A stretch of 40,116 bases of DNA from a virus, in the IMG/VR virus record IMGVR_UViG_3300027969_000197, positions 1-40,116 of that record; one strand, given 5' to 3'. Under the pieces are notes generated by a model. That model did not search any database. It worked only from the letters and a program-made list of their open reading frames with translations, and was not told where the DNA came from. The translations under genes were made by a program, and so were the position numbers. Below are positions 22,354-27,698 of the stretch, piece by piece (position 1 is the first letter of the stretch; every line of letters starts with the position of its first letter).

Positions 22354-22794
22354 TTAGCCCCTCTTTACAGTTGAACGAAGCATCCATGATTGCTTTTCGT
22401 AATCATCAATTAGACCTTCAAGGAAATTTAAAACACCATGTTGCTTTAGTTCATCAGCAGTTGCACATGCAATCTTTGCAGTAGCAAGAACCTTGCCGTT
22501 ATCACCATAGAGACGATTAATCATCTCAAGTGCAATAGGAACAGTTGTCTCATCTTGAATTGATGTTAGCTCTTGAAAGCGTCCGAATGAAGCAGGGGTA
22601 TATGAATCTAGAGCACGAATGTGTTCTGCAACCAAATCCACATCATCAGCAGCCTTTTCATAGATACCACCAAACAAACCGTGATATTGTGGAAAATCTG
22701 GTCCTTCCACATTCCAGTGGTAGTTTTGAGCTTTTAGACCATACGCATAAACATCAGCCAATAATTTCTTCATTTGTTCAATTAATTCATTCAT
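22354..22794 (-). CDS. Dps-like ferritin-fold protein
   Basis: The 146-residue four-helix protein keeps the Dps intersubunit ferroxidase ligands with exact spacing: His26 ('QNYHWNVEG'), His38 ('QYHGLFGGIYEK'), Asp53 and Glu57 ('DDVDLVAEHIRALD'). These correspond to E. coli Dps His51, His63, Asp78 and Glu82. Dps proteins form 12-mer cages that oxidise iron with peroxide and protect DNA. It lacks the Lys-rich N-terminal tail that binds DNA in E. coli Dps. It lies among late head genes behind an AATAAATA box and AGGA. Confidence 0.9.
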   Translation of the reverse strand: MNELIEQMKKLLADVYAYGLKAQNYHWNVEGPDFPQYHGLFGGIYEKAADDVDLVAEHIRALDSYTPASFGRFQELTSIQDETTVPIALEMINRLYGDNGKVLATAKIACATADELKQHGVLNFLEGLIDDYEKQSWMLRSTVKRG

Positions 22795-24465: not shown

Positions 24466-24497
24466 AAAAAAAGCCCCTTGTAGAATACAAGAAGCCT
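24466..24497 (-). terminator. Rho-independent terminator
   Basis: On the minus strand AGGCTTCTTGTA-TTC...TACAAGGGGCT pairs as about 11-12 bp including G-U pairs (24497-24472), followed by seven T residues. It ends the short late unit at 24466-24662 and lies 17 bases before the start of the 22833-24449 gene. Confidence 0.88.
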
Positions 24498-24501
24498 CCT
24501 A

Positions 24502-24603
24502 TTAAATTCCGTTGATTAAGACTAAGGCACCCATTTCTCCTACAACGGTATCTAGCTTGGGAGAAGAAAATTGGTTGTTGGGTGTTACTTTTGTTCTATC
24601 CAT
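24502..24603 (-). CDS. Possible 33-residue peptide within the structured late RNA
   Basis: ATG 24603 (AAGGGA about 7 bases upstream) opens a frame beginning MDRTKVTPNNQFSSPKLDT with a hydrophobic end (VVGEMGALVLINGI) and stopping at TAA 24502-24504. It is the only sensible frame in the short late transcription unit. The last third coincides with the 3' arm of the long RNA stem, so coding and structure constrain the same bases. It could be a genuine microprotein or an accident of structured RNA. Confidence 0.4.
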   Translation of the reverse strand: MDRTKVTPNNQFSSPKLDTVVGEMGALVLINGI

Positions 24604-24663
24604 CAGAGTTTCCCTTGGGCTTATCTGTTTAAATGGGTGTTTGCCTTAGCCTTAACCACTCTT

Positions 24664-24671
24664 TATTTATA
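24664..24671 (-). promoter_or_regulatory. T4-type late promoter TATAAATA
   Basis: A perfect TATAAATA on the minus strand just downstream of the DUF6321 gene stop (24676). The next genuine start downstream is 61 bases (micro-ORF) or 215 bases (the head gene at 24449) away, with a terminator in between. It therefore serves a short transcript. Confidence 0.82.
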
Positions 24672-24675
24672 CTTT

Positions 24676-24969
24676 TTAAACTTTACATCTCCACCTTTTT
24701 AGAGACATTGCCTTACGTGTAGGTCTTCCTTTTTCATCTTTCATTGGGCCGGGCATACCAGACATTCTTGCACAGAATGATTTACGGCGTTTACCTGACT
24801 TAGAATCAGGATCGACATTCTTTTTTGTTACAGCAGTCTTTATACCAAAGTGCGCTGCACCCTTCTTTGTAAGACCAGCACCATCTTCTGTTGCACGGTA
24901 ATATCCTTTACCGTCTTCACCACGCTCTATGAGAACACATTCTGAAATAAAATCTTTTAGCGTTTTCAT
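24676..24969 (-). CDS. DUF6321-domain protein with internal-head-protein-like N-terminus
   Basis: The 97-residue basic protein contains 'GAGLTKKGAAHFGIKTAV', 'GKRRKSFCARMSGMPGPM' and 'KGRPTRKAMSLKRW', the signature of DUF6321. Its start MKTLKDFISECVLIE closely resembles the capsid-targeting peptide of T4 internal proteins (MKTYQEFIAEA), with a possible Leu-Ile-Glu cut site. That suggests packaging into the prohead and trimming. ATG 24969 lies 2 bases beyond the upstream stop; an in-frame start at 24999 lies within the upstream gene. Confidence 0.82.
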   Translation of the reverse strand: MKTLKDFISECVLIERGEDGKGYYRATEDGAGLTKKGAAHFGIKTAVTKKNVDPDSKSGKRRKSFCARMSGMPGPMKDEKGRPTRKAMSLKRWRCKV

Positions 24970-26365: not shown

Positions 26366-26917
26366 TTAAATCCAATGTGGTTTGTCTCTCTTCTTCCAAC
26401 TATGAAGTTCAGACTTAGCGTCTCTGTAATAATTCCTATAATTGATCACAGGATTGTCAGAGGTTTTGTAACAGTCTGGCATACAACATGGCATTGGTGT
26501 CCAATCCCATTCCTTCAGTGCATGAGGCGGCGACTGAAGCTCATAAGCCATCTTAAGCATTGTTGCATGGGTCTTCCCGTACCTATAAGTGTACTCAGCA
26601 CCAAGAGCATAGAGATGATCCACGAGCCAGTTATAATTTTCAACAGACTGACGAACCCAAACAGCAGAAGGGTGGTTAATGTGAGTAGCACTATACAGTA
26701 TGTTATCTCGAACATCTGTGAGTGTCCAGTGCTTTGATTTTCTATGTTTGATACCAAACTCATCAACCCATCCTTCTACAATTGTTTCCTTACCATCAAG
26801 AACACGATGAGCAGTTGACAGCAGTTGTGCAGTCTCAAGAATCATCTTGACTACATGGCGATCAACCATCCACTCTGCACATTGACTTGGGTCTTCATCA
26901 ATATAAAAAATGTTCAT
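26366..26917 (-). CDS. Conserved phage protein, 'MNIFYxDxDPxxCA' family
   Basis: The 183-residue protein has the family pattern 'MNIFYIDEDPSQCAEWMVDRHVVKMILETAQLL' (split here for length: opening MNIFYIDEDPSQCA, then DRHVVKMILETAQLL). Later come 'NHPSAVWVRQSVENYNWL', 'YRYGKTHATM' and 'CCMPDCYKT'. This family is widespread in large phages and some algal viruses but has no assigned function that I know. Conserved Asp, His and Cys residues hint at metal binding or catalysis. Confidence 0.78.
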   Translation of the reverse strand: MNIFYIDEDPSQCAEWMVDRHVVKMILETAQLLSTAHRVLDGKETIVEGWVDEFGIKHRKSKHWTLTDVRDNILYSATHINHPSAVWVRQSVENYNWLVDHLYALGAEYTYRYGKTHATMLKMAYELQSPPHALKEWDWTPMPCCMPDCYKTSDNPVINYRNYYRDAKSELHSWKKRDKPHWI

Positions 26918-27254: not shown

Positions 27255-27698
27255 TCAGTTATGTCTTATCATCCACACATTTCGTGTGTTATATGCTTTC
27301 TTATCTTTTTGTAGATAAGTCAATGCTTTTTTTACGCCTTCGATGCTATCGCTTAGTTTTCCTATTCCAGTGTTACATGCACTGCATATCCATCCACGAA
27401 TTTCTAGTGTATCATGATCATGATCCAAATTTATCATTTTTCCTTCTTCCCCACAGCATTCACAAATAGTTGGTTTTGATGGTGCTACTGAACGAAGCTT
27501 TTCTCTTATATCATCTTCATTTTTCTTACAAGAATAACATCTTGAATCTAAATTATCTTTGTGATGAATGTGTTTTGGAAATGCTGATTTTGGCAAAGCT
27601 TCCTTACAATACAAACACGTTTTTGTTGGTAGATTTTTTTCCCATCCTGACATTTGTTCATCACAGAAATCTATCATATATTCGAAAAGAACAGACAT
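27255..27698 (-). CDS. Endonuclease VII-domain HNH nuclease
   Basis: The 147-residue protein has an N-terminal treble-clef-like part ('KTCLYCKEALPKSAF', 'DSRCYSCKKNED'). A second part 'ICECCGEEGKMINLDHDHDT' ... 'RGWICSACNTGIGKL' ... 'ALTYL' is the zinc-binding His-Me fold of T4 endonuclease VII (gp49). T4 gp49 resolves branched DNA before packaging. The extra N-terminal zinc module is common in free-standing mobile HNH genes, so this could be either the phage's resolvase or a homing enzyme. Confidence 0.85.
   Translation of the reverse strand: MSVLFEYMIDFCDEQMSGWEKNLPTKTCLYCKEALPKSAFPKHIHHKDNLDSRCYSCKKNEDDIREKLRSVAPSKPTICECCGEEGKMINLDHDHDTLEIRGWICSACNTGIGKLSDSIEGVKKALTYLQKDKKAYNTRNVWMIRHN

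Follow-up and report, generated by a model that had tools for sequence, protein, structure and literature searches.

The locus described here raises the question of why, in a phage genome, a late promoter and a terminator enclose a folded RNA and a 33-codon open reading frame (ORF). The window, by which we mean the whole 40,116-nucleotide stretch analysed, is part of a T4-superfamily phage with UvsX, gp41, NrdA, NrdB and primase present, and among named phages its gp41 is nearest to that of Stenotrophomonas phage DLP6 (61.5% at the amino-acid level). On the minus strand the promoter element TATAAATA, the leader, the 33-codon ORF, the terminator and a 538-aa gene with its own ribosome-binding site follow one another (Table 1). 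A preliminary description had read this interval as a self-contained late unit for a structured RNA, a 33-residue peptide or both. Its perfect late promoter, its strong terminator and its 33-codon ORF, the product of which is MDRTKVTPNNQFSSPKLDTVVGEMGALVLINGI (24603-24502, minus), were all recovered, and a structured late RNA with its own promoter and terminator and with conserved pairing is borne out. That this RNA is primarily self-contained and of its own kind does not agree with most relatives, where the same leader forms the 5′ end of a DUF5824 mRNA, and no tool indicated a head protein for the downstream gene, which had been taken to encode a large one. The best explanation, and in our judgement a reasonably probable one, is that the leader is a cis-acting, protein-sensing RNA operator of the late DUF5824 gene, to which an attenuator has been added in the window clade.

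Table 1. Features of the leader locus and its flanks, in window coordinates
Feature	Position	Strand	Evidence
Late promoter −10 element, T4-type, TATAAATA	24664-24671	−	Exact match; same place in 64/67 relatives
Long-range helix, 5′ arm	24631-24658	−	Fold; initial segment can instead form leader hairpin 1
Leader hairpin 1, core UAAGGCUAAGGCAAAC	24654-24639	−	All four stem pairs change on both sides, 22 leaders
Leader hairpin 2, CAGA-UAAG-CC(CAAG)GG-GAAAC-UCUG	24604-24627	−	Outer stem covaries
33-codon ORF, shortened start of relatives' DUF5824 gene	24502-24603	−	
Inner stem, UCUCC (24564-24560) with GGAGA (24540-24536), around AAGCUAG motif	24536-24564	−	Fold; invariant in window clade
Long-range helix, 3′ arm, within ORF	24513-24535	−	Recoding test; 97% paired; kept across frame change
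Intrinsic terminator, 15-pair stem and U-run	24468-24500	−	Conserved in window clade
Downstream gene, 538-aa multi-domain protein, DUF5824 (and DUF5872-like) domain, own Shine-Dalgarno AGAGGAAA	22833-24449	−	Pfam DUF5824 8e-6
Upstream neighbour, DUF6321 protein (context only)	24676-24969	−	Pfam DUF6321 3e-14

By count alone TATAAATA is not significant, with five occurrences in the window against 3.3 expected by chance. In 67 relatives the core can be recognised and the upstream sequence reaches far enough; 64 of them carry TATAAATA 9-22 nt before the core and three carry TAAATA. No second TATAAATA lies between the terminator and the DUF5824 gene in the window, and a candidate late promoter in that interval was rejected as not conserved. 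Around the unit, a Ferritin/Dps-like protein (22354-22794, minus; Pfam Ferritin 5e-18) is encoded in the late cluster directly 3′ of the DUF5824 gene, and a pyrimidine-dimer-glycosylase-like protein and a homologue of recombination endonuclease VII (26366-26917 and 27255-27698, minus) lie near the leader. The DUF6321 protein begins with MKTLKDFISE, which we take to resemble the T4 capsid-targeting N-terminus and which would presumably fit a prohead-loaded protein.

The window RNA without its terminator has a minimum free energy (MFE) of −44.5 kcal/mol (z = −4.05), equalled by none of 200 shuffles, and with the terminator −59.8 kcal/mol (z = −4.21), equalled by one of 200. The MFE helix consists of 16 pairs (24658-24643 with 24528-24513, including two G-U) and seven pairs (24637-24631 with 24535-24529) on either side of a 4-nt bulge, near the 13 and 8 pairs by which the RNA had been proposed to close on itself. 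When the 3′ arm is blocked, the RNA reverts to hairpins 1 and 2, at −36.4 versus −59.8 kcal/mol with the terminator included. Since hairpin 1 and the long-range helix both use the hairpin-1 strand, the two are mutually exclusive. The two alternative inner stems of the preliminary description fared differently: TTCTCC/GGAGAA is invariant in the clade, whereas CCGTTG/CAACGG is absent from L194, L201, L422 and L424 and is rejected because it is kept in the closest sub-clade alone. A hammerhead-like ribozyme, considered on account of the loop letters CUGAUGG, was rejected because these letters are incompatible with the core and Rfam gave no ribozyme match.

The 17-mer AAGCCCAAGGGAAACTC, taken from the loop, has at least 119 matching stretches in IMG/VR against an estimated five or so expected, and strong covariance-model matches place a conserved leader of about 65 nt, built of two small tandem hairpins, at more than 50 IMG/VR loci. 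The late promoter is followed by hairpin 1 (consensus [stem]-UAAG-GC(UACG)GC-AAAC-[stem]), hairpin 2 (consensus [stem]-UAAG-CC(CAAG)GG-GAAAC-[stem]) and immediately the AUG. When 22 leaders are aligned, two-sided changes are seen at each of the four outer pairs of hairpin 1 and at two of those of hairpin 2; 93.9% of stem cells are paired and 38 are doubly changed compared with 12 in shuffles, while slid-structure controls are only 18-49% paired. The outer stem of hairpin 2 alternates between C-G and U-A and among A-U, G-C and C-G, and its inner pair changes from C-G to U-A in L421. The covariance model gives the window its R1 match at 24601-24667 with 77.6 bits (E 4e-16) and yields at most one clear match per record in 30 whole records of up to 151 kb, so the leader is not a scattered element. 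As the preliminary description had supposed, no named family matches the window RNA: Rfam 15 returned no match at family gathering score for the window and 14 relatives, and for short stretches at E ≤ 10 only unrelated chance matches. Named phages gave no BLASTn match to the window leader, the leaders of two relatives gave chance matches only, a loose gapped pattern (GGCTACGGCA-N-AAGCC) mostly chance matches, and a stricter DLP6-like pattern nothing. A search of viral contigs for the UUCG-loop core, which serves as a negative control, returned 33 stretches, of which one (in the L076 contig) has the stem and gene context and the rest are chance or coding matches. Literature searches produced no description of this leader RNA, which is a member of a new, previously uncatalogued RNA family in T4-superfamily phages.

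The AUG that follows the leader is, in most groups, the start of a multi-domain protein of 300-960 aa. The common part of these proteins is DUF5824, with the signature RVNSF; of 28 domains aligned, 24 reach E ≤ 0.01 against the Pfam model. The signature lies 3′ of the leader at 69 of the 89 leader loci; almost all of the others are contigs that end too soon, and the true exceptions are L005, L168 and L181. The leader is absent at the DUF5824 proteins of the phages S-BM3, P-TIM68, Syn19 and Sf-CH8, and in the cyanophages Syn19 and S-BM3 the homologous gene follows soon after the small terminase gene. A Foldseek comparison of the predicted DUF5824 fold (pLDDT 71) with the PDB gave no convincing match to a solved structure. 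The late context suggests that the protein is probably polyvalent and particle-borne (compare PMC5512222). Several observations at individual loci may be recorded here. L168 and L181 have hairpin 2 alone, after CTAAATA and before two other late-type genes without the DUF5824 signature. On the minus strand of L237 (at about 4275 of the reverse complement) the tandem hairpin-2-type hairpins GCGAUAAGCCCAAGGGAAACUCGC and GCAGUAAGUCUAAGGAAAACCUGC precede a cytidylyltransferase-type gene. In L012 (1703-1780) and L257 a frameshift leaves 26 codons in the ORF that follows the leader, where the sister L011 has an intact ORF of 358 codons; this may reflect sequencing error, decay or a first step towards a split form. 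In most relatives' ORFs a CAGCUAG motif, its Leu codon nearly always CUA, lies between hairpin 2 and the 3′ arm and recurs even where the flanking protein sequence differs.

The leader also occurs in cultured phages, as a single-hairpin version directly before the homologous gene in the isolates DLP6, phiN3 and phiM12. In DLP6 the hairpin CUUCGAG[AAGGCUACGGCAAAC]CUCGAGAGGAAC precedes AAY80_068; its model score of 20 bits (E 0.02) is weak taken alone, yet it has the identical core at the same place. The phiN3 hairpin, UCUCCAUAUGG[CUUAACGGCUUCGGCAAUC]CCAUAGGAGA, and its near-identical copy in phiM12 were recognised by eye rather than by the covariance model. Pairing probabilities predicted for seven leaders place the Shine-Dalgarno or the AUG in a helix, only partially so in the window class. 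The outer stem is predicted to pair directly with the Shine-Dalgarno in phiN3 and phiM12 and to cover the AUG in L076, and in DLP6, L005 and L076 the Shine-Dalgarno is predicted to be mostly paired. In the window leader the Shine-Dalgarno-like AAGGG sits in the apex of hairpin 2, where firm pairing is predicted for its last two bases alone. These models suggest that the hairpin buries part of the ribosome-binding site in most classes.

We propose that the leader probably controls the timing or amount of DUF5824 protein made. Once transcription has started at the late promoter, the RNA would fold first into one or two small hairpins, each with a tetraloop enclosed by a fixed internal loop (UAAG .. 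AAAC), and the final hairpin would bury the Shine-Dalgarno. In two-hairpin classes the hairpin-1 strand could afterwards leave its hairpin and pair with the first tens of codons in a long helix. A putative hairpin-binding factor, for which the protein encoded by the gene itself or a different late phage protein is the simplest candidate, would keep the ribosome-binding site shut or, alternatively, shift the balance between the hairpin fold and the long helix. In this way the phage would tune or time how it makes a protein that is probably carried in its particles. In the window clade, where the reading frame has been closed after 33-39 codons and a terminator added, the same RNA would probably act as an attenuator. 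A widespread, covarying leader family that lacks an Rfam entry, occurs in cultured phages and is tied to one gene would open to experiment the question of how phages set the timing and dose of possibly injected proteins.

The short form seen in the window is common to 11 further contigs, all with their own promoter and conserved terminator, in which two pairs show changes on both sides. The ORF is open in all intact members of this clade, and its stop codon either falls within the 5′ arm of the terminator or precedes that arm by 0-6 nt. Given this position, a ribosome on the short ORF would hinder the terminator and polymerase would run into the gene. Because many terminators lie close to stop codons, the spacing argues only weakly for attenuation. 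The leader ORF and terminator precede the gene with no TATAAATA between them. The N-terminus of this gene differs between sub-clades, and it is still a DUF5824 gene wherever readable. Within the ORF the block SSPKLDxVVGE is conserved (dN/dS 0.39), while the ends vary (INGI, TRRFL, ISRF or, from another frame, LNQ...) and the block over the 3′ arm has a dN/dS of 0.93. Despite these varied ends the RNA arm CUUAGYCUUAAYC is kept, and the 15-pair helix is 97% paired across nine distinct clade sequences. Selection on the codons alone, which the preliminary description had set against its own proposal, is insufficient for an arm that persists where the reading frame differs; the 3′ arm is therefore under RNA-level selection. 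By these sequence comparisons the 33-aa peptide represents the ancestral DUF5824 gene's start in shortened form, and the separate unit is a derived arrangement of one clade.

The clade may represent an operator in the course of turning into an autonomous late RNA with its own function, and the family a new class of RNA switch between hairpin 1 and the long-range helix, a tentative reading that we consider unlikely. A free-standing late RNA of about 190 nt, released by the stop codon and terminator and acting elsewhere as a small RNA or packaging scaffold, would account for the promoter and terminator of all 11 related contigs, for a 3′ arm conserved through a change of frame and for an RNA that stays while the N-terminus of the next gene differs. 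However, that next gene is DUF5824 wherever it can be read, the RNA is an mRNA 5′ end in all other groups and the start of the ORF is under selection. We regard a trans-acting or structural role as rather improbable and as less likely than the cis-acting operator/attenuator.

The partner of the 5′ arm is coding sequence 30-170 nt past the AUG, and the two have co-evolved in seven groups that differ in their reading frames. Compensatory change, by which the preliminary description had proposed to check its arms, was found both in the leader stems and in these co-varying arms. Of the 5040 possible matchings of leaders to frames among the seven groups, the true one alone reaches the observed total of 308.5 (mean 212; best full mismatch 224). 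Synonymous recoding never reached the observed pairing in 150 attempts for 11 of the 17 reading frames tested, the window included; in L285 it did so in 13 of 150. The helix appears in the MFE folds of nearly all two-hairpin members. Long-range pairing is not significant in DLP6, phiN3, phiM12, L005, L076 and L187. Because the helix is undetectable in single-hairpin classes and weak in L015 and L170, it is not universal, and its absence from the former suggests that it is probably derived. In all two-hairpin classes it starts at about the expected 5′ end, as would suit an element of more than 20 pairs that blocks 5′-dependent decay or is cut by RNase III. Such a role in mRNA stability or processing would not account for internal loops that hardly vary, for a buried ribosome-binding site or for the link to a single gene, and we think it quite improbable.

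Two similar tandem hairpins with nearly invariant loops upstream of a ribosome-binding site might also be taken for the paired mini-aptamers of a ligand-sensing riboswitch. We consider this very unlikely, as both loops are tiny, the gene has no metabolic role, the element occurs at most once per record and so far only in phages, and it has no similarity to Rfam riboswitches. Least probable of all is that the locus is simply a small protein gene with pairing as a by-product: the ORF is open throughout the intact clade, its SSPKLDxVVGE block is conserved and its start codon lies at the Shine-Dalgarno-bearing hairpin in every relative, but its C-terminal third diverges or changes frame while the RNA arm is kept, and the leader stems that covary lie outside it.

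The operator/attenuator model can be set against several known systems. Translation-coupled transcription attenuators with a leader ORF consist of a leader RNA, a short ORF, a terminator and a structural gene, and the window clade has the same order of parts. The leader ORF differs in that no regulatory codons are seen in it, and relatives in which the leader ORF is the large gene have no terminator between leader and gene. The packaging RNA of phi29-like phages is likewise a small structured late phage RNA, whereas the leader is tied in cis to one mRNA, contains a coding region and has no Rfam similarity. The manA, wcaG and PhotoRC-II motifs of cyanophages (Rfam; PMC2864571) are structured RNAs in the presumed 5′ UTRs of T4-like phage genes. 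In contrast to these, the leader matches no Rfam family, even at E = 10, beyond unrelated chance matches. In T4, the e, soc, 49 and I-TevI transcripts carry inhibitory structures in which a helix hides the Shine-Dalgarno, the start codon or both, and for e and I-TevI a late promoter inside the 5′ strand yields late transcripts that lack the structure and are translated (PMC3014915). A T4-type late promoter combined with a helix predicted to hide the Shine-Dalgarno or AUG is found here too, but in the window TATAAATA lies 5′ of the whole 5′ arm, as it or TAAATA does in 67 of 67 relatives examined. The leader is thus not of the e/soc/49 class, because late transcripts keep the 5′ strand here and lose it there. 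Closer precedents are T4 gp32 and gp43, with operators at the ribosome-binding site bound by the gene's own product (PMC3014915). These are a hairpin or pseudoknot at the ribosome-binding site of one gene, present at one site per genome and kept among related phages, and the leader too is one conserved site at the ribosome-binding site of one gene family. It differs in its hairpin and its gene, in that its binding protein is putative, and in combining tandem hairpins with a long-range helix that reaches the coding sequence. Taking gp32 and gp43 as a guide, we regard the leader as probably protein-sensing.
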